Positions 3,331 to 21,103 of a DNA stretch of 37,754 nucleotides are shown in pieces. The position numbers and the translations under genes were made by a program. The stretch comes from a virus, in the IMG/VR virus record IMGVR_UViG_3300047284_000266, positions 1 through 37,754 of that record. One strand, written 5' to 3'. Every line of letters begins with the position of its first letter. Position 1 is the stretch's first letter. The notes beneath the pieces were generated by a model. That model was not told the DNA's origin and did no database searches. It worked only from the letters and a program-made list of their open reading frames with translations.

Positions 3331-4413
3331 TCAACCGATTGCAGGTGCAGTCAGAGCAACAGGAGTTGCGCTAGCAGCAGCAAGGTCAAGAGGGAAGTTG
3401 TGAGCATTGCGCTCATGCATTACCTCAAAACCAAGGTTAGCACGGTTGAGGATGTCTGCCCAGGTGTTGATAACACGACCACTGTTGTCCAGCAGAGACT
3501 GGTTGAAGTTGAAACCGTTCAGGTTGAATGCCATGGTGCTAACACCAAGAGCAGCAAACCAGATACCAACTACAGGCCAAGCAGCAAGGAAGAAGTGAAG
3601 TGAGCGTGAGTTATTGAAGGACGCATATTGGAAAATAAGGCGACCGAAATAACCATGAGCAGCTACAATGTTGTAGGTCTCTTCTTCTTGTCCGAACTTG
3701 TATCCGTAGTTTTGAGATTCAGTTTCAGTTGTCTCACGAACGAGTGAAGACGTAACCAAACTTCCGTGCATAGCACTAAAGAGGCTGCCACCAAATACCC
3801 CAGCCACGCCGAGCATATGGAAAGGATGCATGAGAATGTTATGCTCTGCTTGGAAGACGAGCATGTAGTTAAACGTGCCCGAGATTCCGAGAGGCATTGC
3901 ATCACTGAAGGAACCTTGACCGAAAGGATAGACAAGGAACACTGCAGAAGCAGCGGCAACAGGAGCACTATAAGCAACGCAGATCCAAGGACGCATACCC
4001 AGACGGTAGGAAAGTTCCCACTCACGACCCATGTAGGCATAGATACCAATCAGAAAATGAAAGACGACCAATTGGAAAGGTCCACCATTATATAGCCACT
4101 CATCGAGTGACATTGCTTCCCAAATGGGGTAAAAGTGCAGTCCAATAGCATTAGACGATGGAACAACAGCACCAGAGATAATGTTGTTTCCGTACATTAG
4201 TGAACCAGCAACAGGTTCACGGATACCGTCGATATCGACAGGAGGAGCAGCAATGAAAGCAACAATGAAACAGATAGTAGCAGCAAGGAGGCAAGGAATC
4301 ATAAGGACTCCAAACCAACCGACATAAAGACGATTATCGGTTGATGTTACCCACTCACAGAACTGTTCCCATGTATTACTTCCACCGCGTTGTTGAGCGA
4401 TAGTAGCAGTCAT
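3331..4413 (-). CDS. psbA: Photosystem II reaction-centre protein D1
   Basis: D1 binds P680 chlorophyll, pheophytin, QB and the Mn cluster in the thylakoid membrane. The phage copy replaces photodamaged host D1 so that infection stays light-powered. All 360 residues align by eye with cyanobacterial D1 with a one-residue insertion near the N terminus. The donor tyrosine region ([14 protein letters not shown]), the ligands in MHPFHMLG, and the Mn ligands in [14 protein letters not shown] before the C-terminal processing site are all present. The residue at standard position 130 is Glu (MGREWELSY), as in high-light D1 forms. No intron or frameshift is visible. Start ATG 4413 has GGAG upstream. 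It has its own promoter region and terminator. Confidence 0.98.
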
Positions 4414-4446
4414 AGTTAATACTCCGAGTAATTGGGGGAATGTATT

Positions 4447-4482
4447 GTTAAGGAATGCGAAGTTTTGTTTCGATTCCCTAAC
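4447..4482 (-). ncRNA. 5'-leader hairpin of psbA mRNA (PhotoRC-like candidate)
   Basis: Right after the promoter boxes the minus strand reads GTTAGGGAAT, then CGAA-loop-TTCG, then ATTCCTTAAC. This gives a 10-bp lower stem with one G-U pair and a 4-bp upper stem around loop ACAAAAC. A transcript from the late box would begin at or next to the stem. PhotoRC-I and PhotoRC-II are known candidate cis-regulatory RNAs upstream of psbA in marine cyanobacteria and phages. I cannot confirm that this matches either consensus. Confidence 0.6.
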
Positions 4483-4485
4483 ATT

Positions 4486-4493
4486 TATTTATA
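4486..4493 (-). promoter_or_regulatory. T4-type late promoter of psbA (TATAAATA)
   Basis: A perfect match to the T4 late box on the minus strand, 73 nt before ATG 4413. It overlaps the -10 hexamer of the sigma70-type promoter at 4491-4519, so psbA may be transcribed both early and late. Confidence 0.8.
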
Positions 4494-4519
4494 ATACCAT
4501 GATCAGAAATCTCTGTCAA
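4491..4519 (-). promoter_or_regulatory. Sigma70-type promoter of psbA (TTGACA-17-TATTAT)
   Basis: Perfect -35 TTGACA (4514-4519), spacer of exactly 17 nt, and -10 TATTAT (4491-4496). Host RNA polymerase should read it early in infection. The last three bases of the -10 are also the first three of the late box TATAAATA. Confidence 0.8.
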
Positions 4520-4533
4520 GGGGTCTGGGCAAG

Positions 4534-4557
4534 AAAAAAGGAGTCTCACTGGACTCC
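4534..4557 (-). terminator. Rho-independent terminator after the hli / 56-aa pair
   Basis: Minus strand GGAGTC, loop CAGTGA, GACTCC, then six T. The stop codon TGA of the 56-aa gene (4546-4548) is inside the hairpin loop, so translation and termination signals are nested. Confidence 0.8.
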
Positions 4558-4716
4558 CCTTTTGGTTTTGTTCTGAATGACAATAAATTTGTCTTTCGGA
4601 AGTGTGCCTGCAACCTTAACTTCAAGTTCGTCGTCTCGATCCCAGGCACCAGATTCAATTAGTTCATGAAGGGCAATAGAAAATTGCCCCAGCATGTCAT
4701 TAGAATGATTCACCAT
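4546..4716 (-). CDS. Hypothetical protein, 56 aa
   Basis: Starts at ATG 4716, overlapping the end of hli by 7 nt (ATGGTGA), which suggests translational coupling. The first part looks helical (MLGQFSIALHELIESGAW), followed by a short beta-like part (DDELEVKVAGTLPKDKFIV). No family recognised. It is co-transcribed with hli from the promoter at 4951-4979 and ends inside the terminator hairpin. The overlap and clean reading frame support a real gene. Confidence 0.7.
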   Translation of the reverse strand: MVNHSNDMLGQFSIALHELIESGAWDRDDELEVKVAGTLPKDKFIVIQNKTKRGVQ

Positions 4717-4928
4717 ACGCCAGGAATCAGTTGCCCAGTAAGAGCATAAGCACCGATAGCTGCAATAACGCCAAGCATAGCCAGGCGACCATTGAGGCGT
4801 TCTGCTTTTTCATTGTGAGTTTCGTACATGTTGTTGTCCATAGCTTCTATAATCTCCTCAGAAATGTACATTTGTGGTTCTTTGGCAAACATATTCTGCT
4901 GGCCAAATTCATTTGTGGTTGTGGTCAT
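4710..4928 (-). CDS. hli: High-light-inducible protein (Hli), 72 aa
   Basis: Single-helix chlorophyll-binding-family protein of thylakoids that protects photosystems under excess light; phage copies accompany psbA. The family core is clear at the C terminus: an ExxNxR-type helix (EKAERLNGRLAMLG) followed by VIAAIGAYALTGQLIPGVW. The open frame extends upstream to 4979, but that extension overlaps the promoter at 4951-4979, so ATG 4928 (MTTTTNEF) is the start. No clear Shine-Dalgarno precedes it and the leader would be only about 16 nt. The first 30 residues are phage-specific and uncharacterised. Confidence 0.95.
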   Translation of the reverse strand: MTTTTNEFGQQNMFAKEPQMYISEEIIEAMDNNMYETHNEKAERLNGRLAMLGVIAAIGAYALTGQLIPGVW

Positions 4929-4950
4929 GTTAAATTTTATTACAGACCAT

Positions 4951-4979
4951 ATTATATAGGATTGCTTAAGATTTGTCAA
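4951..4979 (-). promoter_or_regulatory. Consensus sigma70-type promoter of hli (TTGACA-17-TATAAT)
   Basis: Perfect TTGACA (4974-4979), 17-nt spacer and perfect TATAAT (4951-4956), 22 nt before the hli start. The -35 lies in the last codons of the 84-aa gene. It should be strong and early and fixes the hli start at 4928. Confidence 0.9.
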
Positions 4980-5220
4980 GTGCCTCTTTGAGGACTTCAG
5001 TGACCAAATTCAGAACTGGTTGGTGCCTATCGTATCCTTTGATACTACCACGGCACATAACTGGATCTCCTGCAAGAGGATTGGGCTCTAGCATTTCATA
5101 TTCATAATTATGTTTGCTAGTAAAACCTTTACCCGTAGAATTCCAAATGCGAATCTCTGCAAGTTGTTTACCACCAATGGTCATACCATATGGTTCAAGT
5201 TCTACTTTGACACGAATCAT
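4966..5220 (-). CDS. Hypothetical protein, 84 aa
   Basis: Starts at ATG 5220, two bases after the stop of the zinc-finger frame. The composition is balanced and globular with alternating beta-like segments (MIRVKVELEPYG, LAEIRIWN) and a final amphipathic helix (LNLVTEVLKEAL). It has one Cys and no signal or membrane segment. No family recognised. Its last codons contain the hli -35 element. Likely real because of clean spacing on both sides. Confidence 0.7.
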   Translation of the reverse strand: MIRVKVELEPYGMTIGGKQLAEIRIWNSTGKGFTSKHNYEYEMLEPNPLAGDPVMCRGSIKGYDRHQPVLNLVTEVLKEALDKS

Positions 5221-5222
5221 AA

Positions 5223-5447
5223 TTAATCTCTGGGTTTAGGTTTGTTGCATTCATTACAGTAGTAGGAAAACCCACTACGGAATGATCTTACCACTTGGTA
5301 GTGGTCCGTGTCAAGTGGTTTTTCAATCTGACACTTGGCACACTGTCTAGTCGAAATCGAGTGGGTTATCTTTTTTTCGTTCTTGTTTACGAAACTTTTT
5401 AAGGTCTTCAAATAATCCTTTAATTTCTTTATAGGCATCGTTAGCAT
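5223..5447 (-). CDS. Zinc-finger frame (CxxC...CxxC), 74 aa, overlapping the 64-aa gene
   Basis: The C-terminal 40 residues read CAKC-x(23)-CNEC with EKPLDTDHYQ between. This is the small zinc finger often found in or next to HNH endonucleases. The ATG at 5447 has AGGA upstream but lies inside the 64-aa gene in another frame. Part of the finger lies beyond the 64-aa stop, with no ATG of its own after that stop. Alternatives: the finger is the true C terminus of the 64-aa gene, joined by slippage on the run of seven A in the mRNA (5371-5377 on the plus strand as T), or a one-base indel split a single gene. The finger is convincing; the start is not. Confidence 0.5.
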   Translation of the reverse strand: MLTMPIKKLKDYLKTLKSFVNKNEKKITHSISTRQCAKCQIEKPLDTDHYQVVRSFRSGFSYYCNECNKPKPRD

Positions 5448-5541
5448 CTTTCTTTCCTGCCATTTCTGCAGCAACAATATACTCGACTTTCTTTCCAAAG
5501 TCAAACAGATGTAGTTCAAAATTAGTTTGATGTTCGTACAT
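5347..5541 (-). CDS. Hypothetical protein, 64 aa
   Basis: Starts at ATG 5541 behind a strong AAAGGAGG. An upstream in-frame extension runs into the tRNA at 5565-5637 and is rejected. The protein is mostly helical (FDFGKKVEYIVAAEMAGKKDAND, then a Lys-rich helix) and ends NPLDFD. It contains an A7 run in the codons for RKK near the end. Deleting one A would continue it into the zinc finger encoded at 5223-5447. No function recognised. Confidence 0.7.
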   Translation of the reverse strand: MYEHQTNFELHLFDFGKKVEYIVAAEMAGKKDANDAYKEIKGLFEDLKKFRKQERKKDNPLDFD

Positions 5542-5564
5542 GCTGACCTCCTTTATTCTATCTA

Positions 5565-5637
5565 TGCTCCTTGAGGGGATCGAACCCACCTGAGGCGAAT
5601 TATGAGTTCGCTGCTTTCACCAGATAGCTAAAGGAGC
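5565..5637 (-). tRNA. tRNA with anticodon CAT (Met, or Ile2 if lysidine-modified)
   Basis: Seven-bp acceptor GCTCCTT/AAGGAGC, anticodon stem GCGAA/TTCGC with loop CTCATAA, and T-arm with GGTTCGATCC. Base pair 1-72 is G-C, so it is not the initiator. A CAT anticodon can be elongator Met or AUA-reading Ile; the sequence alone does not decide. CCA is not encoded. Confidence 0.9.
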
Positions 5638-5642
5638 AAAAG

Positions 5643-5735
5643 TAGGGGCGGAGGGACTCGAACCCCCAACCGCACGGTAATCTGCCGTATACGAAAGGTA
5701 TAAGCTTTCCGCTCTGCCAATTGAGCTACACCCCC
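5643..5735 (-). tRNA. Unusual 93-nt tRNA, apparent anticodon TAT
   Basis: The acceptor GGGGGTG/CGCCCCT, D-arm GCTC/GAGC and T-arm around TTCGAGT are all sound. After the D-arm, GAAAG/CTTTC encloses a 7-base loop CTTATAC, giving anticodon TAT with T33. A 25-nt stretch follows before the T-stem and contains its own hairpin (ACGG, loop CAGATTA, CCGT). Class I D-arm features combined with a class II-length variable region are odd. The second hairpin is also 7-looped but lacks T33. Identity is uncertain. Confidence 0.7.
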
Positions 5736-5738
5736 ATA

Positions 5739-5810
<72 letters not shown>

Positions 5811-5816
5811 TTAAAT

Positions 5817-5987
5817 TCATAACTCTTGAGAGTTTAACATATATTCTACGGTATTGGCAATGTCGTTCATTGCTATTCGTAAATCTGGTTGTTGACCAGA
5901 TTCCATTTTAACAATGGGACGATGATCATCAGTAAGAGTCCACCTCCACTGATTAAGTTCTTTACAATACCAAAGATTAATTTTCAT
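5817..5987 (-). CDS. Hypothetical protein, 56 aa
   Basis: Starts at ATG 5987, overlapping the end of the 51-aa gene by 11 nt. It begins MKINLWYCKELNQWRW and has a short Trp/Tyr-rich strand pair, then a helix (DLRIAMNDIANTVEYML). No family recognised. It sits between tRNA genes in a string of very small proteins; the overlap with its neighbour and intact frame support expression. Confidence 0.65.
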   Translation of the reverse strand: MKINLWYCKELNQWRWTLTDDHRPIVKMESGQQPDLRIAMNDIANTVEYMLNSQEL

Positions 5988-6132
5988 GTTTAAATTGTTC
6001 CAGTTTTAACCAGTTGATAAGTGCATTGACTTCCATCCTTTTATCTTCAGTAAAGTCATTACCCTTACTAAACATATAAAAGTCTAGTGCTTCAATAGCA
6101 ACTTCTCGGTCTCTCTGTGAAATAAGCGACAT
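5977..6132 (-). CDS. Hypothetical protein, 51 aa
   Basis: Begins MSLISQRDREVAIEALDFYM. The start ATG 6132 has GAGG six bases upstream. A longer open frame would run back into the tRNA-Gly gene and is rejected. The protein is helical and charged (DFTEDKRMEVNALINWLKLEQF). No family recognised. It is probably coupled to the following 56-aa gene, which starts inside it. Confidence 0.65.
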   Translation of the reverse strand: MSLISQRDREVAIEALDFYMFSKGNDFTEDKRMEVNALINWLKLEQFKHEN

Positions 6133-6150
6133 AATAACCTCATATGAGGA

Positions 6151-6222
6151 AGCGGAGTATCGGATTCGAACCGACGACATCTAACTTGGAAGGATAGCGT
6201 TCTACCACTGAACTAACTCCGC
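6151..6222 (-). tRNA. tRNA-Gly (anticodon TCC)
   Basis: Acceptor GCGGAGT/ACTCCGC, D-arm GTTC/GAAC, anticodon loop CTTCCAA, T-arm with GGTTCGAATCC; 72 nt. The anticodon stem CTATC/GTTAG has one T-T mismatch. The identity agrees with the Gly-typical TTCCAA loop and D-arm. Confidence 0.92.
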
Positions 6223-6228
6223 AAATTT

Positions 6229-6300
6229 ACCTCTGTCTAGGAATCGAACCTAGTTTCCATGTGTGTTGTCCACCCGTCCTTACCAATAGACTACCAGAGG
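6229..6300 (-). tRNA. tRNA-like gene without a normal anticodon loop (possible pseudo-tRNA)
   Basis: It has tRNA length (72 nt), a T-arm CTAGG/CCTAG with TTCGATT, a weak D-arm (GTCT/GGAC) and a 6-of-7 acceptor (CCTCTGG/ACAGAGG, G-A mismatch at the base). The anticodon arm is poor. The best fit is GGGTG/CACAT with loop GACAACA, which lacks the universal T33 and would put CAA at the anticodon. It may be a decayed tRNA, a tRNA-like processing element, or a tRNA that folds differently from what I see. Confidence 0.55.
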
Positions 6301-6469
6301 TTGTGGTAGGTGTTGAAGACTTTACCTATGTCTCCACTCTTTACATTCACTCACCCACAGAATACTAGGGATGAGGAGCGGTTTTGGCACCTACGTTTGG
6401 CAGGAAAACACCAATCAGGTGACTTTCCCCCTCGATCTCCTTCTAGGCTATCTGCCTAGCGAGTATCGA
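6301..6469 (-). other. Gene-free, structured gap between tRNA-like and tRNA-Leu genes
   Basis: No credible reading frame. On the minus strand two stem systems are visible. One is GCTAGGC/GCCTAG around 6443-6459, extended outward by ATCGA/TCGAT pairing. The other is GGAA..CACC/GGTG..TTCC near 6400-6430. The heptamer GTAGGTG pairs with CACCTAC about 80 nt away. It could be a small non-coding RNA released with the tRNAs; this is inference. Confidence 0.45.
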
Positions 6470-6551
6470 TGTCGGTAAGAGGACTTGAACCTCCACGAAT
6501 TACTTCACTGGAACCTAAACCCAGCGCGTCTACCAATTCCGCCATACCGAC
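6470..6551 (-). tRNA. tRNA-Leu (anticodon TAG)
   Basis: Class II tRNA of 82 nt. Acceptor GTCGGTA/TACCGAC; Leu-type D-arm (GGCGGAATTGGTAGACGC); anticodon stem CTGGG/TCCAG with loop TTTAGGT; a long variable arm; T-arm with GGTTCAAGTCC. Reads CUA. Confidence 0.95.
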
Positions 6552-6594
6552 ATGTTGGGAGGAGGTCAATCCTCCCGAGCACATGCACGCCACC

Positions 6595-6602
6595 TATTTA
6601 GT
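6595..6602 (-). promoter_or_regulatory. ACTAAATA box upstream of tRNA-Leu
   Basis: Minus-strand ACTAAATA 44 nt before the tRNA-Leu 5' end. The same octamer precedes several protein genes in the window and resembles the T4 late box in its TAAATA part. Confidence 0.35.
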
Positions 6603-6630
6603 TATCGAGGAAATAGGAAACTCGGCGGGA

Positions 6631-6719
6631 GTTAAAAACCCCATCCGCACCAGGGCACATTTAACGTCTGTCCGAGACTCGGGATTGAAGGGGATCCTTC
6701 ACCGACCAGGGTTTTTAAC
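6631..6719 (-). repeat. 11-bp perfect inverted repeat enclosing two small hairpins
   Basis: GTTAAAAACCC (6631-6641) and GGGTTTTTAAC (6709-6719) are perfect reverse complements 67 nt apart. Between them on the minus strand lie GAAGG-ATCC-CCTTC and CCGAG-T-CTCGG. Together they can fold into a closed multi-stem RNA of about 89 nt. No open reading frame uses it. Candidate phage non-coding RNA. Confidence 0.55.
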
Positions 6720-6785
6720 GTGTCTCCATCACGGGCATATCGGGGATGACTCCACCAGGTTAAGTTTTAAGTCATTCCAGGACTA

Positions 6786-7073
6786 TCAAAAGGTGATAAT
6801 ATCATCACCCATTCCACCACGAATACCGCTACTAATATAGTTATAATCACCAAAATCAGCAGCAACATACGACGATAAATCAAATCTGATACTATCACCT
6901 TCGGAAGTTTTAGTCAGATTATATCTAGAACTACCTCTCCAATTTTTAATTGTGCTAATAGTCTCAGAAATGTTTCGAAGAAGATATGGATCTTCAGTCT
7001 CCGCACCTAGTTTAAGTGCAGTACGAAGAGCATCTTCAGCACGTTCTAGTTGATACCTTACGGTGTCAGTCAT
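6786..7073 (-). CDS. Hypothetical protein, 95 aa
   Basis: Begins MTDTVRYQLERAEDALR. ATG 7073 has AAAGGAG at good spacing and overlaps the end of the 82-aa gene by 8 nt; the longer frame to 7118 starts inside that gene and is rejected. The N-terminal half is helical with tetratricopeptide-like spacing; the C-terminal half is Gly/Ser/Tyr rich (YNYISSGIRGGMGDD). No family recognised. Confidence 0.65.
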   Translation of the reverse strand: MTDTVRYQLERAEDALRTALKLGAETEDPYLLRNISETISTIKNWRGSSRYNLTKTSEGDSIRFDLSSYVAADFGDYNYISSGIRGGMGDDIITF

Positions 7074-7314
7074 CGTTATCGTCTCCTTTAATATAGCATG
7101 AAACTCGATCTGGGTCAAGCCATTTAGTATAATCGAAATCTTCTATTGCAAGAAAGAATTGATCCTCGTTATCACAAAGATACATGTCTCTGTATCTTCC
7201 AGTGTAGGAATCAACTTTTTGAATCCTACAATCGGGTCTCCCATTAATCTCTAGTGTTCCGACTTGAACATAGCGGTAGGGAAACCGCTCCATAACAACA
7301 GTAGGTTTTTTCAT
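7066..7314 (-). CDS. Hypothetical protein, 82 aa
   Basis: Starts at ATG 7314, 19 nt after the tRNA-Arg 3' end. The protein looks like a small beta-rich domain (YRYVQVGTLEINGRPDCRIQKV) followed by an acidic tail ending DDNDD. No family recognised. No strong Shine-Dalgarno is visible. Its end overlaps the start of the 95-aa gene, suggesting coupling. Confidence 0.65.
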   Translation of the reverse strand: MKKPTVVMERFPYRYVQVGTLEINGRPDCRIQKVDSYTGRYRDMYLCDNEDQFFLAIEDFDYTKWLDPDRVSCYIKGDDNDD

Positions 7315-7333
7315 AATGAATAGTTCAATAAGG

Positions 7334-7407
7334 CGTCTCAGGAGGGACTTGAACCCCCGACCAACTGCTTAGAAGGCAGATGCTCTATCCAACTGAGCTA
7401 CTGAGAC
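7334..7407 (-). tRNA. tRNA-Arg (anticodon TCT)
   Basis: Acceptor GTCTCAG/CTGAGAC, D-arm GCTC/GAGC, anticodon loop CTTCTAA, T-arm with GGTTCAAGTCC; 74 nt with all arms paired. It reads AGA, a codon used often in the AT-rich phage genes here. Confidence 0.96.
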
Positions 7408-7415
7408 ATTCTACA

Positions 7416-7571
7416 TCAAGCAGCAGTTTTTTTCAACTCCTTGATTTTTTGAGCGATTTCTTTTGCTTCACTCAAACGACCCTCACTCGCAAGTGAATGA
7501 AGTTGATCGATGAGTGCTTCAACAGTAAAGTCTACGATATGCGAATCATCGTAGGCATCGTAAGCGAACAT
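7416..7571 (-). CDS. Hypothetical protein, 51 aa
   Basis: Begins MFAYDAYDDSHIVDFTVEAL. Start ATG 7571 sits behind AAGGAGG, one of the strongest ribosome binding sites in the window, and has its own sigma70-type promoter at 7598-7626. The rest is one long amphipathic helix region (LSEAKEIAQKIKELKK). No family recognised. Being first in the transcript that carries tRNA-Arg, it is probably expressed early and well. Confidence 0.75.
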   Translation of the reverse strand: MFAYDAYDDSHIVDFTVEALIDQLHSLASEGRLSEAKEIAQKIKELKKTAA

Positions 7572-7592
7572 CGGAACCTCCTTGACTTGACT

Positions 7593-7600
7593 TATTTAGT
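7593..7600 (-). promoter_or_regulatory. ACTAAATA box overlapping a sigma70 -10
   Basis: ACTAAATA overlaps the TATACT -10 hexamer of the promoter at 7598-7626, giving TATACTAAATA. This is the same early/late superposition seen at psbA. It lies 22 nt before the start of the 51-aa gene. Confidence 0.45.
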
Positions 7601-7626
7601 ATAGCACGACGGACCTGCCCCGTCAA
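7598..7626 (-). promoter_or_regulatory. Sigma70-type promoter (TTGACG-17-TATACT)
   Basis: -35 TTGACG (7621-7626), 17-nt spacer, -10 TATACT (7598-7603). It should drive the 51-aa gene, tRNA-Arg and the genes beyond. The -35 overlaps the last codons of the nuclease gene. Confidence 0.8.
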
Positions 7627-7961
7627 CCCCCTTGAGAGTGTAATTTTATGTAGTACTCTGCGTCTATAACAACCAGAGGTTTTTTGCCATTCTTTTTCAT
7701 AACAACAATTGGTTCATAATCACCACAGTTTGCAGCTGCCTGTTCGTATGCATCCCATACATTTAGTTTTTCAACGTTTTTGCATTCTATACTATGTGGG
7801 AACTTTTGTCTAGCAGCACGGGCCATGATTAGATCTTCTCCTCCAGCACCCATGCTTCTACTTTCAATATCTTCAGGATGAACCTCAAGATGTTCGATAA
7901 GTTGATCCCTTACCCATTGCTGTAATCTACGACCTTTTGCTTTTGCTGATTGTGGACGCAT
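7623..7961 (-). CDS. Small PD-(D/E)xK-type nuclease candidate, 112 aa
   Basis: Probably a restriction-endonuclease-fold nuclease. After a basic N-terminal helix (KAKGRRLQQWVRDQL) the core reads SMGAGGEDLIMARAARQ and then FPHSIECKNVEKLNVWDAYEQA. The ED plus ECK spacing is the PD-(D/E)xK signature, and a Gln-bearing helix (YEQAAANC) follows as in Holliday-junction-resolvase or VRR-like enzymes. Beta strands PIVVMKKNGKKPLVVID close the domain. The role is open: recombination, repair or host DNA breakdown. ATG 7961 with GGAG upstream. Confidence 0.75.
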   Translation of the reverse strand: MRPQSAKAKGRRLQQWVRDQLIEHLEVHPEDIESRSMGAGGEDLIMARAARQKFPHSIECKNVEKLNVWDAYEQAAANCGDYEPIVVMKKNGKKPLVVIDAEYYIKLHSQGG

Positions 7962-7985
7962 AATAAAAAAGCTCCGTCATGGAGG

Positions 7986-7993
7986 TATTTAGT
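7986..7993 (-). promoter_or_regulatory. ACTAAATA box before the nuclease gene
   Basis: Minus-strand ACTAAATA 25 nt before ATG 7961, overlapping by one base the stop codon of the 52-aa gene. Same octamer as at 6595, 7593, 16582 and 19977. Confidence 0.4.
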
Positions 7994-8151
7994 TAATAAC
8001 TGGCATCCCTATAATTAGGCGGGTCTAAAGTAATAACCTCGTATTTTTCTTCAATCGGTTTAAGTATTTCTTCTAATTCTTCTGGTGTTAAACTATGTGC
8101 TAATACTTGATTTTTTGAGTTATATACATGATGAACTGGTTCGTTGAACAT
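7993..8151 (-). CDS. Hypothetical protein, 52 aa
   Basis: Begins MFNEPVHHVYNSKNQVLAHS, then a helix (LTPEELEEILKPIEEKYEVI) and a short tail. ATG 8151 is preceded by AAGGAGG at ideal spacing. No family recognised. The strong ribosome binding site and clean context argue for a real gene. Confidence 0.7.
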   Translation of the reverse strand: MFNEPVHHVYNSKNQVLAHSLTPEELEEILKPIEEKYEVITLDPPNYRDASY

Positions 8152-8172
8152 ATTCCTCCTTATGAACCGCTG

Positions 8173-8361
8173 TTATTTATCGAACCAAGGGTCTGGTATT
8201 TGCGTTTCATTGCTCCTAGGAACCATGCTTCCGTCAGACTTTTTGGGCCCTCTAGAAGAACTCTCTTGTACTTCTCGTTTAACTTCTCCCTCTCCAAACA
8301 AAGTTCTTTCCAATCTTCCATAAATCTTTTTCTTTAGTTTCTCAGTAATACTATAGAGCAT
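8173..8361 (-). CDS. Hypothetical protein, 62 aa
   Basis: Starts at ATG 8361 about 15 nt downstream of the predicted start of transcription from the promoter at 8383-8411, with GAGG upstream. The protein has a basic helix at the N terminus (ITEKLKKKIYGRLERTLFG) and then a low-complexity Ser/Lys/Pro part. No family recognised; possibly nucleic-acid or membrane-surface binding by charge, but that is speculative. Confidence 0.6.
   Translation of the reverse strand: MLYSITEKLKKKIYGRLERTLFGEGEVKREVQESSSRGPKKSDGSMVPRSNETQIPDPWFDK
8174..8181 (-). promoter_or_regulatory. Late-promoter-like GATAAATA before the 52-aa gene
   Basis: GATAAATA matches the T4 late box TATAAATA at seven of eight positions, 23 nt before ATG 8151. 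It lies across the stop codon of the 62-aa gene, so part of the match may be chance. Confidence 0.4.
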
Positions 8362-8382
8362 CTCTCAACCCCTCACAGAGTT

Positions 8383-8411
8383 ATTTTACAGATAAAAAAA
8401 GGGGTTGTCAA
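8383..8411 (-). promoter_or_regulatory. Sigma70-type promoter (TTGACA-17-TAAAAT)
   Basis: Perfect -35 TTGACA (8406-8411), 17-nt spacer, -10 TAAAAT (8383-8388). The -35 is part of the 3' arm of the preceding terminator and the T-run is in the spacer. Upstream transcripts therefore stop where new ones start. Confidence 0.82.
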
Positions 8412-8434
8412 GTGGTCTTTGTCACCCGACAACC
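8394..8434 (-). terminator. Rho-independent terminator after the lysozyme fusion gene
   Basis: Minus strand GGTTGTC...GACAACC (7 bp) with an inner GTG/CAC pairing in the loop, followed by CC and seven T. It ends the primase-nrdA-nrdB-lysozyme transcript. Confidence 0.88.
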
Positions 8435-8468
8435 TTTACCGACGATATTTGGGTTGCCCCGAATCTAT

Positions 8469-9662
8469 TTATGCGAAGATACGTCCCCATCCACTCTTAG
8501 GACCGTCAGGAAGCCACCTCTTCTGCAGGACGCTACGAGCATAGACAGCACCCTTCCCGTTGCTCACAGCACCCGTGTACCCATCGTTGAGGGATCCATA
8601 GGGATCATTGACCACATAATCGCCTGCAGGGGTCTTACCGATCACCACAACCATGTGCCCTCCTGTAGGGGCACTGAGGGATCCCCTGTGAAGGATTCCG
8701 ATCACCACAGGACGACCTGCAGCAAGTTCCCTATCGAGATCATCGAACCCTAGGGAATAGCTGAAGGATGACTTAACTCCATACGAAGCAAGCACTCTGG
8801 TTTGTACTAAGTGATCTGTAGTATCTCCAACAGCAAATACTTTTCTCACATATTCATCATCACCTTTAGGACCCTTAAGTGTTCCTGGTTTTAGATACTC
8901 AAGAACCATAGCACAAGCAGAACTATTGCAAGTTCTATTTGCATCTCTGTAGTTATCGGTCTGTGGGTAGAACGGAACATCAAGTACAGAGGACTTTGGT
9001 TTCTCTGGTTTGGTTCGATATATCTTCACCCATGCAGAAGTGTCTTCGTTTAAATCCAAAGTGGGGCAATGTGCTTTTGCTCTCTCTAAATCTTTTTCTA
9101 GTTGTTCTACAGCGGCAACGTGATTTGGATTCTTCTCATCGTAATACTTGAAGAAGTTATGTAAGTCTATAATTTTCATTGGTTTTTCTCCTACTAAAGG
9201 TTTTTTCCATAGATCTCCTTCTGCCTTTCTTCTACGAGCCAATCCTGCCTCTACTTTAGACCCAGGATTACGATATAAAAATAGAGCAGATGGAACTTGA
9301 TTCCATTCTTTATTTCTAAGTACTCTAGTTATAGTATCAAAATTTCTATTTCCATAGAAATGCGCCCCCAAGTTATACGCAAAACTTAGGAGCGCACCTT
9401 TTTGATTATCATTCATCTCACCCCAATAGGGAATCTTCTGAAGAGAAGGAAGAAATTTATTCTTCAAATCCGACACTAGAAGATTATCAGCATATTCTTG
9501 AGTGATAGTTTCACCAAGTTTAAAAGGTTTACCATCTTCTTTCCTGGTAGAACCCCAACCAATAGTGATCGGAAGTCCACCAGAAAGAGGATCGGGATAT
9601 GCTTTTAAATGGCATCCCTCAAATTCTTTAATTAATCTTACACCTTGTAATGGCAAAGTCAT
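8469..9662 (-). CDS. Endolysin: lysozyme fused to a C39-like peptidase, 397 aa
   Basis: Residues 1-155 are a phage-type lysozyme (GH24-like) that cleaves peptidoglycan glycan strands. IKEFEG carries the catalytic Glu15, and DPLSGGLPITIGWG supplies Asp24 and Thr33. A linker with coiled-coil character (about 160-200) leads to a papain-like C39-type domain. That domain has Cys245 in TCNSSACAMVLEYL, His336 in GGHMVVVIGKT and Asp353 in VVNDPYG. The second domain could cut peptide cross-links or a protein substrate. ATG 9662 overlaps the nrdB stop (ATGA), so it is coupled to nrdB. No signal peptide, so release would need a holin. Confidence 0.88.
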   Translation of the reverse strand: MTLPLQGVRLIKEFEGCHLKAYPDPLSGGLPITIGWGSTRKEDGKPFKLGETITQEYADNLLVSDLKNKFLPSLQKIPYWGEMNDNQKGALLSFAYNLGAHFYGNRNFDTITRVLRNKEWNQVPSALFLYRNPGSKVEAGLARRRKAEGDLWKKPLVGEKPMKIIDLHNFFKYYDEKNPNHVAAVEQLEKDLERAKAHCPTLDLNEDTSAWVKIYRTKPEKPKSSVLDVPFYPQTDNYRDANRTCNSSACAMVLEYLKPGTLKGPKGDDEYVRKVFAVGDTTDHLVQTRVLASYGVKSSFSYSLGFDDLDRELAAGRPVVIGILHRGSLSAPTGGHMVVVIGKTPAGDYVVNDPYGSLNDGYTGAVSNGKGAVYARSVLQKRWLPDGPKSGWGRIFA

Positions 9663-15524: not shown

Positions 15525-16145
15525 TCAAGTTCCGAATGTTAGAGTTGCTGCTCCGTTTGAAATAACTTCTTCAGTACCACCAGCAGAGGTGATCTTCACA
15601 CGATATGCAGTTCCATCTAGTGAGTCATCAGTTACACCAGCAACAGATAGAGTTGCAGTTGTATAATCAGTGTAGATTGAACCATCAGTGGTAGCACCGA
15701 TATTAACCCAACGAGTTGCCCCAGGAGCAAGTCTCTGCCACTGATATGCAAGAGTTCCAGGTGTACCAGTTGTTGAAGTAGTTAGTGTGAAGGTTGCATC
15801 ACCATCAACAGTAGTTGCACTTGCTGGTTGAACAGTAATTGTAACTGCTGATGCTGCATCTGCTGCGATGGTGTCATCAGTTTGAGTTTCATCTGCGTTT
15901 GCTTCAGGGTTGCTGATGAATACTAGGTGCTCAGCTTTATGGCGAGTCTTACCAGAAGCATCAGTATAAGTACGATATGACCACCAACCAGGACCAGTAA
16001 TACCACGGGAAGCATTCTCGTTCAGTGCTGCTTCGGTGTTATCTACGAAAACAATTGTTTCTGTGGCAGTATTAGGAACTGCATTACGGAGATTCTCGAT
16101 AGCAGTTTTTGCTGCGTTAGAATCTACTCTATCATAGAGGGACAT
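15525..16145 (-). CDS. Ig-like domain virion protein candidate, 206 aa
   Basis: Residues 1-90 are a compact N-terminal domain (GPGWWSYRTYTDASGKTRHK). Residues about 97-205 form one immunoglobulin-like domain: VTITVQPASATTVDGDATFT, the core Trp in YQWQRL, and ATLSVAGVTDDSLDGTAYRVK with the conserved Tyr. Such domains decorate capsids or tails of many phages and may bind host surface sugars. A late box (TATAAATA, 16182-16189) lies 37 nt upstream and GGAG precedes ATG 16145, which supports a late structural gene. Confidence 0.8.
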   Translation of the reverse strand: MSLYDRVDSNAAKTAIENLRNAVPNTATETIVFVDNTEAALNENASRGITGPGWWSYRTYTDASGKTRHKAEHLVFISNPEANADETQTDDTIAADAASAVTITVQPASATTVDGDATFTLTTSTTGTPGTLAYQWQRLAPGATRWVNIGATTDGSIYTDYTTATLSVAGVTDDSLDGTAYRVKITSAGGTEEVISNGAATLTFGT

Positions 16146-16181: not shown

Positions 16182-16189
16182 TATTTATA
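16182..16189 (-). promoter_or_regulatory. T4-type late promoter (TATAAATA) before the Ig-like gene
   Basis: Exact TATAAATA on the minus strand, placed directly after the T-run of the terminator at 16190-16215, so a new late transcript begins where the upstream one ends. Confidence 0.85.
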
Positions 16190-16581: not shown

Positions 16582-16589
16582 TATTTAGT
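16582..16589 (-). promoter_or_regulatory. ACTAAATA box before the 57-aa gene
   Basis: Identical octamer to 6595, 7593, 7986 and 19977. It overlaps the stop codon of the 393-aa gene and lies 46 nt before ATG 16536. Confidence 0.45.
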
Positions 16590-17766
16590 CAAAACGAGAT
16601 GTGTGTTTTGACATTGCTTCGGCTTCTCTCTTCTCCTTAGAAGTATGCCCATGCTTGACAACTCTATCAACTTGACGATTAACTCTTCTATTGTGAGTTT
16701 GTAGTGGGGTTTCTTTTTCACCTTTTACTTTAGGTGCTTGACGAGAACCAGGATGAGCAGCAGCATGAGACTTATACTCTGGAGACTTAGAGCGATCTAC
16801 TGTACGACCAGATGATTTCTCATATTTGTCGATTGCAGTATCCCTCTTTGCTTTTGCTGCTAGAGATGCTTTTGCTTTTGCAGCACGTTGCTCACGACCA
16901 GCATCACCACGATCCACACCTTCTTTATCCATTCTACGTGCTTCCATGAAGTCTGAGAATGAAAGTGATTCATTTGCTTTTTTCATCTTAGGAGCACTTG
17001 CAGGATGAGTGTCTCTGTAGAAAGTTGATGATCTATTTGCTTTTGCTTTCTCTTGATCTGCTCTCTTTGTTTTATTATAAATGTGAGCCATCTTACTCAT
17101 CTGAGTAGTTGCTTTCCTTTCGGCTTCAGTTGTATTTGGAACTGGTGAATTATCAGTTTTAGCATAGACAGATCTGCTTAGTTTGTCTTTGATTTTAGCA
17201 GCAACTTTCTTGTATGGGAAAGTTTGCTTACCTTCCTCGATTTCAAACTCTTCCTTTACCTTCTCCATCTCTTTGCGTTTTGCAGCAGTCTTAGCAAGTA
17301 GTCTTGCCTTTGCAGCATCACGTTCAGACTGAGGAATATCAATATTGGTTAGAGCACCAACTCTTTCAGCTGGTTTACCAGGAACAGCAGATTCTAATAC
17401 TTCACCTTCTAGTTCATAAGAATTAGAAAGACCAACTTTCTTTAGAACTTTTCCAACTAAACTAGACTTTTTCTTTGGGGAAGAATAACTACCCTGTCTT
17501 TTTGCATAATCCATATATGACTCTCCTGGTTTTAGTTTTTTAGTAGATACGACTTTTGCTACTGGTTTTTTGCCATCCTCTCTTGCTCTGAGTTTAGCAC
17601 CACGATTAGACATTTTACGATCCTCATCTGGATCTGGATGCCAGTAATCACCTTCCTTTAACTCTTCACTATCGGGATTAATTTTTACTGTCGATTTACC
17701 AACAGAAATTTGCTTTCCCTTTTTAACCTTATCTTCCTCAGAAATAAATGAATTGAAAGATTCCAT
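16585..17766 (-). CDS. Lys-rich disordered protein with capsid-targeting-like N terminus, 393 aa
   Basis: Very basic and low-complexity throughout (repeated KAKASLAAKAKR, KKVAAKIKDKL segments), with little predicted globular structure. It begins MESFNSFISEE. T4 internal head proteins begin MKTYQEFIAEA and are cut by the prohead protease after (L/I)xE; here ISE fits that rule. A second similar motif, FSDFMEARR, lies near residue 270. A DNA-binding protein packed in the head is plausible (inference). ATG 17766 follows GAGGAGAGG, 11 nt after the 721-aa gene. Confidence 0.75.
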   Translation of the reverse strand: MESFNSFISEEDKVKKGKQISVGKSTVKINPDSEELKEGDYWHPDPDEDRKMSNRGAKLRAREDGKKPVAKVVSTKKLKPGESYMDYAKRQGSYSSPKKKSSLVGKVLKKVGLSNSYELEGEVLESAVPGKPAERVGALTNIDIPQSERDAAKARLLAKTAAKRKEMEKVKEEFEIEEGKQTFPYKKVAAKIKDKLSRSVYAKTDNSPVPNTTEAERKATTQMSKMAHIYNKTKRADQEKAKANRSSTFYRDTHPASAPKMKKANESLSFSDFMEARRMDKEGVDRGDAGREQRAAKAKASLAAKAKRDTAIDKYEKSSGRTVDRSKSPEYKSHAAAHPGSRQAPKVKGEKETPLQTHNRRVNRQVDRVVKHGHTSKEKREAEAMSKHTSRFD

Positions 17767-17777
17767 TCGTCCTCTCC

Positions 17778-19943
17778 TCAGCGAACGTTAGCGGCATACC
17801 ACTTCTCGAAATCTTCTCTACGCTTATCACCTCTAGGTGGCATAGGAGTTTTCTCTCCACGAACAGGAGCATACTTTTTCTTTTGTCCTGCTTCATACTT
17901 CTCAGGATTATTACGAGCCTCTTGTGCTTCATTTACTTCTTCCCAAGAGTAATTACGAACTTCAAGACCACCCTCCTCTAGAGAATTACCAATCATTTCA
18001 TATCCCATGTTGAGTTCCTTCTTCTCTTTAGGAGTTAAAGCACCTCTTTGTGCTCCTCTTGCTGCTTGCTTTGCCTTTACCTTAGGATCATCGGACTTGT
18101 GTTGTCCAACATGTAGTCCAGGATTCGATGAAGCAGTCTTACGGTAATCACCTCTTTGTGCTCTTGCATAATTTTGTCTTTGCTTTGCTTTATTAGCATC
18201 ACCGAATGTTGACTTCTTCTCAAGTGCAGTTGCTCTATCTGCTGCTTCACCACCGCCAGCACGTTGACGTAGTTTGGTTTCATCATAACCACGCTTTGCC
18301 ATGGCAGTTGCTTCAGAAACTACATCATAAAGTTCTTCAATCTCTTCCTCTGAAAGATCTTCCATGAGTTCGAAGAACTGATCTTCGTTCTCGATTACAC
18401 CCTCAGCATGAAGCCAGTCTGCAACCATCTCCACATCAGCAAGGAATTGAGTTTCTTCATCGAGTTGCTCAACTTCATCGTTGATTACTGCACCATTTTC
18501 TTCGAAGATAACTTCATAACCATCTTCCAAAGCACCGATAACTTCACGAACTTGATCCATATCATAACCTTCTTGGATCATATCCATTACTAGTTCTTCA
18601 TACTCTTCCTTAGGAACACAGTTAGGAACTTCACGACCACCCTTCTTCTTCATGCCAACCATTTCATATCCTTTCCAGCAAGGATCCTTACCACCACCTT
18701 GTAGTTTTCCTGCTTCATCTAGAAGATCACCTTCAGGTTCGTATCCTGCTGCTTGCATTGCTTTTTTGCGAATAGTTGCAAAATACACACTCTTACCCTT
18801 TTCTGCACCATACTGCTGTTGCATTGATGCCTTCATACCAGAAGGATCATACTTATCCTTAAGTTGTGCTTCCTTCTCTTTTTCTGCGGGAGTCATTTTC
18901 GCTTCATTGCGAATCTGATTAAGAAGATTATCTAGATTGCTCTTAGACTTTTTCTTGGCAGTTGCTTGCTTAGGAGCTGGTGTGGATGAGGGTTTTGCTG
19001 CTGGTTTTGCTTCTGGTTTCTTAGCAGCAGGTTTTGCTGCTGGAGCAGGAGCAGACTTACCTCTACCTTCATCGTATCCTGCCTTAGCAGTCTTTACAAC
19101 CTTACCAACTGCCTTACCTGCACCATGAATTGCTTTCTTAAGACCAGACTTAAGACCAGATGCAATTCTACCTAGAAGACCAGGACGCTTAGTTCCAGTT
19201 GCAGAAGAACCACCAGAAGAACTGCCTGAAGATCCTGAACCAGTTCTAGGTGAATCCGACTTAGAATCATTGCTGTCGGACTTAGTTGCGCTAGGAGCAT
19301 CCTTTGCAGCCGCAGATGCTTTCTTATAACCAGCAACTGCAGAACCAGCAACTTCGCCAGCACCATGAGCAACTTTCTTAGCAACTTCTTTTGCACCTGA
19401 AGCAACTTTCTTTACAGCATCCTTAACTTTTGCAAGTCTGCTGGATCTGCTTACTTCCGAACCAGAATCATGACCAACAGTTACCTTTGCCTCTTCGAGG
19501 TATGAGAGTTCAGACTCAACATGCTCGATTAGAAGAGTTTCTAGTTCTTCAATTTCAAAACCTTCTTCTAGAGTCTCGTAGAAAAACTCTTCAACAACTT
19601 CTTCAATAAGAGTATCAGAAAGGAAAAGAACTTCTTCATCAGTTAGTTCATCAAGAACAGATGAGAAATCTACAGACTCTTTTTTGGTCTCACACTCGCA
19701 AGGCTCTTTGCCACACTTAGAACACTTACCAGTTGCCTTTTTGATTGCGCGATCCTTTACACCAGCATACTCATCAGTTTCGTCTTCTACAGTTCCATCC
19801 CCATCAAAGTCCTTCGACTTCTTTCCCGACTTTTTGGTGTACTTATGCTCTTGATCTTCACCAGCACCTTTCATTTCATCAAGATAACCAATATCTCCTA
19901 GGATATTTTCAATCCCATCGAGTTTTAAGTTGTTAGTAAACAT
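17778..19943 (-). CDS. Large modular low-complexity virion-type protein, 721 aa
   Basis: Residues 45-58 fit an EF-hand-like calcium loop (DFDGDGTVEDETDE). Residues 74-84 hold a Cys knuckle (CSKCGKEPCEC). Residues 90-150 are an acidic helical region; 165-330 are Lys/Ala helical repeats like LEA or histone-H1 tails (VKDAVKKVASGAKEVAKKV), then Pro/Ala/Lys linkers. At about 420-450 lies KDPCWKGYEMVGMKKKGG, echoed near 660 by GYEMIG. Another acidic region and a basic tail follow. YLEEA after residue 145 is a possible prohead-protease site. No enzyme domain seen. Probably a late head or tail protein by context. Confidence 0.75.
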   Translation of the reverse strand: MFTNNLKLDGIENILGDIGYLDEMKGAGEDQEHKYTKKSGKKSKDFDGDGTVEDETDEYAGVKDRAIKKATGKCSKCGKEPCECETKKESVDFSSVLDELTDEEVLFLSDTLIEEVVEEFFYETLEEGFEIEELETLLIEHVESELSYLEEAKVTVGHDSGSEVSRSSRLAKVKDAVKKVASGAKEVAKKVAHGAGEVAGSAVAGYKKASAAAKDAPSATKSDSNDSKSDSPRTGSGSSGSSSGGSSATGTKRPGLLGRIASGLKSGLKKAIHGAGKAVGKVVKTAKAGYDEGRGKSAPAPAAKPAAKKPEAKPAAKPSSTPAPKQATAKKKSKSNLDNLLNQIRNEAKMTPAEKEKEAQLKDKYDPSGMKASMQQQYGAEKGKSVYFATIRKKAMQAAGYEPEGDLLDEAGKLQGGGKDPCWKGYEMVGMKKKGGREVPNCVPKEEYEELVMDMIQEGYDMDQVREVIGALEDGYEVIFEENGAVINDEVEQLDEETQFLADVEMVADWLHAEGVIENEDQFFELMEDLSEEEIEELYDVVSEATAMAKRGYDETKLRQRAGGGEAADRATALEKKSTFGDANKAKQRQNYARAQRGDYRKTASSNPGLHVGQHKSDDPKVKAKQAARGAQRGALTPKEKKELNMGYEMIGNSLEEGGLEVRNYSWEEVNEAQEARNNPEKYEAGQKKKYAPVRGEKTPMPPRGDKRREDFEKWYAANVR

Positions 19944-19975
19944 TTTAATTTCTTGCGAGTTTTCCTTTTCTTCTA

Positions 19976-21103
19976 TTATTTAGTGGTTTTTACTTTTTTC
20001 ATCCACCCACCAAATGTGACTTTTGGTTGTCCTGGAGTAAGTTGTTGAACATAATCACGATACTTATCGGTTCCAATCTCTAACTGAGTCGCTGGATCTG
20101 CACCTTCGCTGAGTTGTGTCAACCAACCACGATGAGTATTATCGTATTCATCAGCATAGATTACATAGTTAGGACCACGATGAATTACTTCACCAAGGAT
20201 ACCAGTATCTAAATTCTGAACGATTGCTCCCTCTTGGAAGATTTCATTATTGTAATATGCTTCTCTTAGAAATTCGTAATCTAACTCTGGTGCATACTGC
20301 CACATCTCTGCTTTAGTAGTTGTATGCATCGCATCCTGTAAAGTCTTGAAAAGTTCTTCTTTTTGCGAATCCTTTAATGTATTTGGAACTCCTTTCTTAA
20401 ATGATTCAAAGTCGTCATCCATAGCTGCCTTACGCATCTTAGAAGCAGACATTCCGCTAACGTCTTCGGCATCAGCATCTCTATCACCTGCCGAGATAAC
20501 TTGAATATTATTAAAGTTGTATAGAGAACCATTATATTTCTGAGCAAGATTTTGAAACTCGGAAACTCTATCAGAACCAACGACAATAGTAACTTCAGTG
20601 TATCCTTCTGATGCTACGTTTTTTAAAACATCAAAGATACTTCTCATGTTCTCATCACCGACAATAGCATCCGCATAATCAGGAAACATCTTCTTCATCC
20701 ATTCAATCTTAGTATTTGGATCAAGAGGATTCTTAGCAGGATCTTGAGAACGTGAAGGATAAATTCTAAAGTCTCCCTTTGCAGAATTAGCAACCTGTTG
20801 AATTAGTTTTTCATGACCAATTGTAGGGGGATTGAATCTACCAAAGGTTAGGGTAATATCCATTCCCTGATCTGCTGCCTTAGAAGCATCTTGCTCTGGA
20901 GCCGCAGGATGATCTGTAGGAAGTCCAGCATCTTTAGGTGAAACTTTTACTAGTTTCATTCCACCTTCAGATCTATATTCTACCTTTTTAGTTCTTGGAT
21001 TAGCATACTTTCCATAACCAACATGGACAAGTCCGAGTTTCTCTGCTTCTGCTGCAGCACCACTCTTTTTGCCTTCACTTAAAAAATCCTTATAACTTTT
21101 CAT
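19976..21103 (-). CDS. Nucleotidyltransferase with capsid-targeting-like leader, 375 aa
   Basis: Residues 81-240 are a HIGH-type nucleotidyltransferase: FGRFNPPTIGHEKL (TIGH at 94-97), GSDR at 176-179 and SGMSASKMRKAA at 216-227 in place of ISGTxxR. Relatives transfer AMP or CMP, for example nicotinamide-mononucleotide adenylyltransferase. Residues 1-11, MKSYKDFLSEG, match the T4 internal-protein leader (MKTYQEFIAEA) with an LSE cleavage site. The C-terminal 75 residues contain a small beta-barrel-like part (GILGEVIHRGPNYVIYADEY). Possibly packaged and injected. It is followed on the transcript by the two low-complexity proteins. Confidence 0.85.
   Translation of the reverse strand: MKSYKDFLSEGKKSGAAAEAEKLGLVHVGYGKYANPRTKKVEYRSEGGMKLVKVSPKDAGLPTDHPAAPEQDASKAADQGMDITLTFGRFNPPTIGHEKLIQQVANSAKGDFRIYPSRSQDPAKNPLDPNTKIEWMKKMFPDYADAIVGDENMRSIFDVLKNVASEGYTEVTIVVGSDRVSEFQNLAQKYNGSLYNFNNIQVISAGDRDADAEDVSGMSASKMRKAAMDDDFESFKKGVPNTLKDSQKEELFKTLQDAMHTTTKAEMWQYAPELDYEFLREAYYNNEIFQEGAIVQNLDTGILGEVIHRGPNYVIYADEYDNTHRGWLTQLSEGADPATQLEIGTDKYRDYVQQLTPGQPKVTFGGWMKKVKTTK
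19977..19984 (-). promoter_or_regulatory. ACTAAATA box before the 721-aa gene
   Basis: Octamer ACTAAATA 34 nt before ATG 19943, overlapping the last codons of the nucleotidyltransferase gene. Same octamer as four other sites in the window. Confidence 0.45.

Follow-up and report, generated by a model that had tools for sequence, protein, structure and literature searches.

A leader resembling the T4 capsid-targeting sequence on a nucleotidyltransferase and a basic protein of a T4-like cyanophage

How an enzyme of metabolic appearance comes to be present in cyanophage particles is the question raised by the locus described here, as several groups have found such enzymes in the particles and could not separate cargo from carry-over. 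The locus is part of a 37,754-base virus record (IMG/VR IMGVR_UViG_3300047284_000266), in the following called the window, which is a fragment of a T4-like cyanophage (Kyanoviridae). Its genes follow the order DNA polymerase, UvsX, 2OG oxygenase, helicase, MazG, P593, NT, P721, P393 and head protein, which resembles the order in S-CREM1 and also that in S-SZBM1, where other genes surround NT. All window features given here are located on the minus strand. NT (19976..21103) is a nucleotidyltransferase of 375 aa with relatives annotated as cytidyltransferase, NMNAT or NadR-like, and its closest isolate homologue is that of S-CREM1 (Kyanoviridae) with 81% identity. P393 (16585..17766) is a basic protein of 393 aa with a pI of 9.85 and belongs to phrog_1784, a family without assigned function.

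Both proteins begin with a leader that resembles MKTYQEFIAEA of T4 including the (L/I)xE site, NT with MKSYKDFLSE/G (residues 1-10, 21074..21103) and P393 with MESFNSFISE/E (residues 1-10, 17737..17766), exactly as a preliminary description of this DNA had placed them. The third FxxFMEA motif that it had named inside P393 was likewise found, as FSDFMEA at residues 270-276 (16939..16959). An in-frame stop stands directly before the ATG of NT, so that no longer start is possible and its N terminus is certain, and the ribosome-site-like GAGGAG is present upstream of the P393 start. Each leader falls within the first ten residues, with an aromatic residue or F at positions 4 and 7, I or L at 8 and E at 10, and the residue after the presumed cut site of P393 is Glu, not Ala. 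When every candidate start of the window was compared with the strict motif M..[FY]..[FYLIM][ILVM].E on both strands, the NT and P393 ORFs were the only matches. After widening to admit F at position 8 as well, the motif was present at 17 of the 3437 candidate gene starts of six gp21-positive cyanophages versus 4 of the 4911 internal Met codons (odds ratio 6.1, P = 2e-4), and in T4, which served as control, IPII, IPIII and also gp61.1 match.

In T-even phages, capsid-targeting sequences are an established feature (PMC3012670, PMC12373910), and mutations in T4 IPIII have revealed that targeting requires residues 4 and 7, and processing residues 8 and 10 (PMC9026906). The leader of T4 IPII and IPIII and that of the cyanophages are alike in having ten residues with an aromatic residue at 4, F at 7, I or L at 8 and E at 10, and in being attached to otherwise unrelated proteins of phages with a gp21 protease. 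They differ in their carriers, as the T4 internal proteins are small, whereas the cyanophage leader is found on enzymes of 300-800 residues and is often followed by a second module. A packaging role has been shown for the T4 leader, whereas for the cyanophage leader it is deduced from this likeness.

For the conservation of the leader, NT loci were collected by six peptide patterns, one of which was the leader itself, and 46 NT homologues aligning from their start were reduced to 32 at 90% identity; as this set was chosen for alignment from residue 1, it is to be read accordingly, and NTs found via the leader DNA pattern were excluded because their use would be circular. F7 and E10 are present in all 32 relatives, F or Y at position 4 also in all, K2 in 31 and L8 in 30, while positions 3, 5, 6 and 9 are variable. 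The conserved positions 4, 7, 8 and 10 are thus those mapped in T4 IPIII. Residues 1-11 carry a mean information of 3.5 bits, equal to the catalytic domain, compared to 1.85 for the linker. In the jumbo phages RaK2, 121Q and 30-3 the NTs have no leader and begin with the catalytic domain or close to it, and in HTVC008M gp21 is present and the NT is without the Glu. A lineage of short NTs, split in two genes and having no leader, occurs in part of the Kyanoviridae, with S-CAM1 (L265, 2474-3309, plus strand) and the uncultured phages L050-L055 as its members here, and these offer a natural comparison for the leader.

Seven of the eight complete P393 homologues begin leader-like, with MKSFKSFIAEE, MKTFQSFISEE, MKSFNNYIAEQ, MKAFKSYIQER and MLNFSDYLEEK as examples, and the internal motif is kept as SFS.F[MV]E[AS]R in seven of eight as well. 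In S-CREM1_220, leader position 7 is H (MKSFAKHLQER), and the internal motif reads MSFSQFMEAR. A hypothetical cut at the internal motif of P393, where FME/A is not a classical LxE site, would leave a 118-residue piece with a pI of 10.4.

If the leader is a substrate of the prohead protease, the same phages should hold gp21 and a similar site in their capsid protein. Homologues of gp21 are present in T4 and in all Kyanoviridae tested. The capsid-protein sites at the expected maturation position, for the cyanophages read from sequence and not from N-terminal data, are LLTE/A in S-CREM2, FLAE/A in S-SCSM1 and S-CRM01, FLSE/A in P-SSM2, MLTE/A in S-CREM1 and ILTE/A in S-SZBM1, with FLTE/A in T4, and the cyanophage sites correspond to the latter half of the leader. 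The protease and the LxE/A capsid site occur together in S-CREM1, S-CREM2, S-SZBM1 and others; the window ends short of both gp21 and gp23. S-TIM5 and S-CBWM1, for which virion kinases are reported, were considered as further tests and proved uninformative, as no gp21 homologue and no clear leader-bearing enzyme was found in them.

Orthologues of NT have been detected by mass spectrometry in purified particles of S-SM1 (PMC3037559), S-SZBM1 (PMC9146016), S-SCSM1 (PMC9602691; also in the GenBank note) and S-CREM2 (PMC10665884), albeit with few peptides (2 and 3). These proteins start with MKKFSAFLNEA, MRFRQFIIEA, MKSFLQFLKEA and MKNFSSFLTEA, respectively, the leader of S-SZBM1 being one residue shorter than the other three. 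The cytidyltransferase/NMNAT-like virion protein of cyanophages (T4-GC190; S-SCSM1 gp91; S-CREM2 gp154) is the orthologue of the window NT. Its presence in virions is already published, and neither leader nor packaging mechanism is described in these accounts; as a literature search of partial coverage returned no paper joining the virion NT to a capsid-targeting leader, the link appears to be new.

The preliminary description had suggested looking for the leader in other cyanophage proteins, and it was indeed found on unrelated enzymes detected in virions. In S-CREM2, the genes starting with the leader are gp6 (SAM lyase), gp14 (kinase), gp154 (NT) and, as a looser match, gp13, and all four are among the virion proteins (52 of 219 genes, P = 0.003); with the first motif the strict matches are three of three (P about 0.013, calculated by hand), gp13 again being the looser one. 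F at position 8 was added to the motif after S-CREM2 gp136 (MQTFSMFFSED) had been seen, which is itself a virion protein and is counted in the pooled result for three phages, where under the widened motif five of eight strict leader proteins were detected versus 18% of all genes (P = 0.006). S-SM1 was left out of the counts because its record marks virion proteins no further than the paper states. In S-CREM1 virions 14 proteins were detected and NT is not named, which is too few to count either way. The small leader proteins S-SZBM1_191, S-SZBM1_192 and S-SCSM1 gp30 are absent from the published virion lists. S-SZBM1_191 and S-SCSM1 gp30 belong to a small conserved family, also present in S-CREM1, which carries the leader and SESVNISGDFNG and is encoded between the terminase genes (L064, 22311-22628, minus strand; L084, 34215-34535, plus strand).

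The leader was also found beyond these isolates. A leader DNA pattern matched at least 120 stretches of IMG/VR, and among the matches listed there are at least 103 leader ORFs in at least 48 clusters, including at least 35 NTs, at least six proteins of the DUF6267 type (PF19782, 3e-89), GNAT acetyltransferases, a HAD phosphatase and an ADP-ribosyltransferase (PF18760, 1.5e-12), and many of the leader proteins are basic and of low complexity. Several unrelated proteins of one phage carry the same leader in the window (NT, P393), in S-CREM2, in S-CRM01 and in the uncultured phage contig L217. The latter has seven leader genes within 6 kb (3445-9422), including one for an ADP-ribosyltransferase (PF18760) and one for a GNAT-like protein, and judged by its gene content this cluster is likely a cargo island. 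In S-CRM01 the leader is carried by NT, by a kinase of 821 aa, by a GNAT and by a further protein, and a kinase has been reported in S-CRM01 virions according to a citation in PMC10665884. The kinases of S-CREM2 and S-CRM01 are 32% identical and align from residues 3 and 81, respectively, yet both begin with the leader, which is therefore kept apart from the protein body.

The GNAT-like acetyltransferase of S-CRM01 has 131 aa (L094, 19045-19440, plus strand) and starts with MKTFDEFLTEG; related GNATs with leader are present in L161 and L217. DUF6267 proteins with the leader occur in several contigs (L167, 953-2182, plus strand; L147, L201, L218) and contain the motif KWDGAP, which resembles one of polynucleotide ligases, and S-SZBM1_141 and S-SM1_189, which are similar to them in sequence, are without the leader.

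Behind the leader, NT residues about 14-53 (20945..21064) form a second N-terminal module of the form GLxxxGxGxWxDxxGxxxxxTxxGxL, which is modelled as a small unit of helix plus strands with a pLDDT of about 70. A search with an HMM made only of NTs recovers the module in S-CREM2 gp12 (1e-12) and gp14 (3e-8), in the S-CRM01 kinase (3e-5) and in a 191-aa ORF of S-CRM01 (2e-11). It is common to three unrelated types of proteins seen in virions, NT, kinases and a Cas9-like protein, and not present in all leader proteins. The Cas9-like protein is S-CREM2 gp12 (L066, 7704-10313, minus strand), a virion protein annotated as Cas9/Csn1 for which no Pfam match was found, and which has the leader-like LRFASFMAEA after a 16-residue extension, together with the second module. 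The 191-aa ORF of S-CRM01 (100704-101276) has the same N-terminal layout as gp12.

With regard to its enzymatic identity, NT scores above the Pfam cut-off for PF01467, and its T/HxGH motif is present with H97 invariant. The domain at residues 80-265 (20309..20866), which includes GRFNPPTIGH at residues 88-97 and SASKMR at 219-224, is, according to the structure model, clearly an adenylyltransferase fold of the HIGH superfamily of nucleotidyltransferases, and since T/HxGH and SASKMR are conserved, the protein is likely to be catalytically active. Compared with CoaD (PPAT), NMNAT and NadD structures, the model gives close to tied Z values of 13-14.6 with an rmsd near 3 over about 150 residues. 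NT has the fold and the T/HxGH motif in common with these enzymes, but is about 10-17% identical to them and adds the N-terminal leader, the module and a C-terminal extension. The nucleotidyltransferase fold that the preliminary description had predicted thus holds, whereas the NAD target that it had proposed is not established. Phosphopantetheine and NMN/NaMN enzymes score about equally, the scores for PPAT and NMNAT structures differing by no more than about 1-1.5 Z, NT stays far below the NCBIfam equivalog cut-offs for NadR/NadD (TIGR01526, 17.3 bits versus 341; TIGR00482, 17.9 versus 112), and a PDB sequence search gave no match. NAD synthesis was therefore rejected as a firm function, and a NAD-related substrate is only one option.

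We consider it very likely that the leader of NT and P393 is a T4-type capsid-targeting sequence that brings both into the prohead core, and that they then remain in the head. The packing of NT, as the preliminary description had proposed it, is well supported by the conserved T4-type positions, by the leader on unrelated virion-detected enzymes and by the NT orthologues in four virions; we infer that the phage of the window resembles its relatives in this respect. While the head assembles, NT and P393 would be bound to the scaffold core via the aromatic residues 4 and 7, and gp21 would then cut after Glu10, leaving the mature proteins in the DNA-filled head, a trimming that is probable by analogy with T4. 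At infection, both would exit together with the DNA and become active in the host ahead of phage gene expression, NT as nucleotidyltransferase and P393, or its C-terminal basic piece, as DNA-bound internal protein; such a delivery, again by analogy, is somewhat less assured but still fairly likely. A close parallel is T4 Alt, an ADP-ribosyltransferase that is packaged in the head, bears at its N terminus a propeptide whose end is a site of the LxE/IxE type and is delivered at infection, although its leader MELITELFDED differs in form from that of NT and NT is a nucleotidyltransferase.

It could also be that the leader targets the prohead core, but that its proteins serve head assembly or DNA condensation in the particle without acting in the host. 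The strongly basic character of P393 and of its C-terminal piece, the many basic low-complexity proteins with leader and the effect of T4 IPIII on head assembly (PMC9026906) would agree with such a role, which we nevertheless regard as unlikely, as the conserved catalytic motifs of NT and the leaders on SAM lyase, kinases, GNATs and ADP-ribosyltransferase suggest enzymes that are meant to act, like T4 Alt. Much less probable is that the N-terminal segment represents nothing more than a helix conserved in the NT family and that NT, as an abundant protein, was carried over into the virion preparations. Carry-over was named as possible by the authors of two cyanophage proteome studies and would fit the low peptide numbers, but NT was found independently in four phages, the same leader is present on proteins unrelated to NT and marks virion-detected enzymes in S-CREM2, and the three jumbo-phage NTs lack it. 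That the leader is an inhibitory or masking propeptide cleaved by gp21, switching enzymes on without any targeting role, is highly improbable despite its LxE site like that of the capsid protein, because T4 gp21 acts inside proheads, so that a substrate must get there first, and because the positions 4 and 7 conserved here serve targeting and not cleavage in T4.

Starting from the leader as a capsid-targeting sequence, we tentatively suggest as a possible extension that T4-like cyanophages use a portable N-terminal address, made of the ten-residue leader and often a module of ~40 residues, for loading a variable assortment of enzymes into the head, comprising nucleotidyltransferase, kinase, Cas9-like protein, SAM lyase, acetyltransferase and ADP-ribosyltransferase. 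If this is true, the leader predicts which effectors are injected by uncultured marine phages. That the leader matches the packaging signal of T4 by position offers a mechanism and a cheap test for cargo, and may make it possible to predict from sequence alone the proteins brought into their hosts by abundant marine phages. The conserved cyanophage "cytidyltransferase" would no longer count as auxiliary metabolism but as probable head cargo that acts when infection begins.

Some minor observations concern the surroundings of the two genes and T4 itself. P721 (17778..19943), an acidic low-complexity protein of 721 aa encoded between NT and P393, has no leader and has a short segment in common with the virion proteins S-SZBM1_139 and S-CREM2 gp160. 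The head protein H206 (15525..16145) belongs to the family phrog_613, and its orthologue S-SZBM1_136 was detected in virions. The T4 late-promoter core TATAAATA is located at 16182-16189 of the window, 37 bases upstream of the head protein start; it occurs four times in the window versus 2.1 expected, which is not a significant enrichment. In T4, the 54-aa gp61.1 (L069, 18966-19130, minus strand) starts with MKTFKEFIKED, a good capsid-targeting sequence, and may therefore be an overlooked internal protein of this phage.
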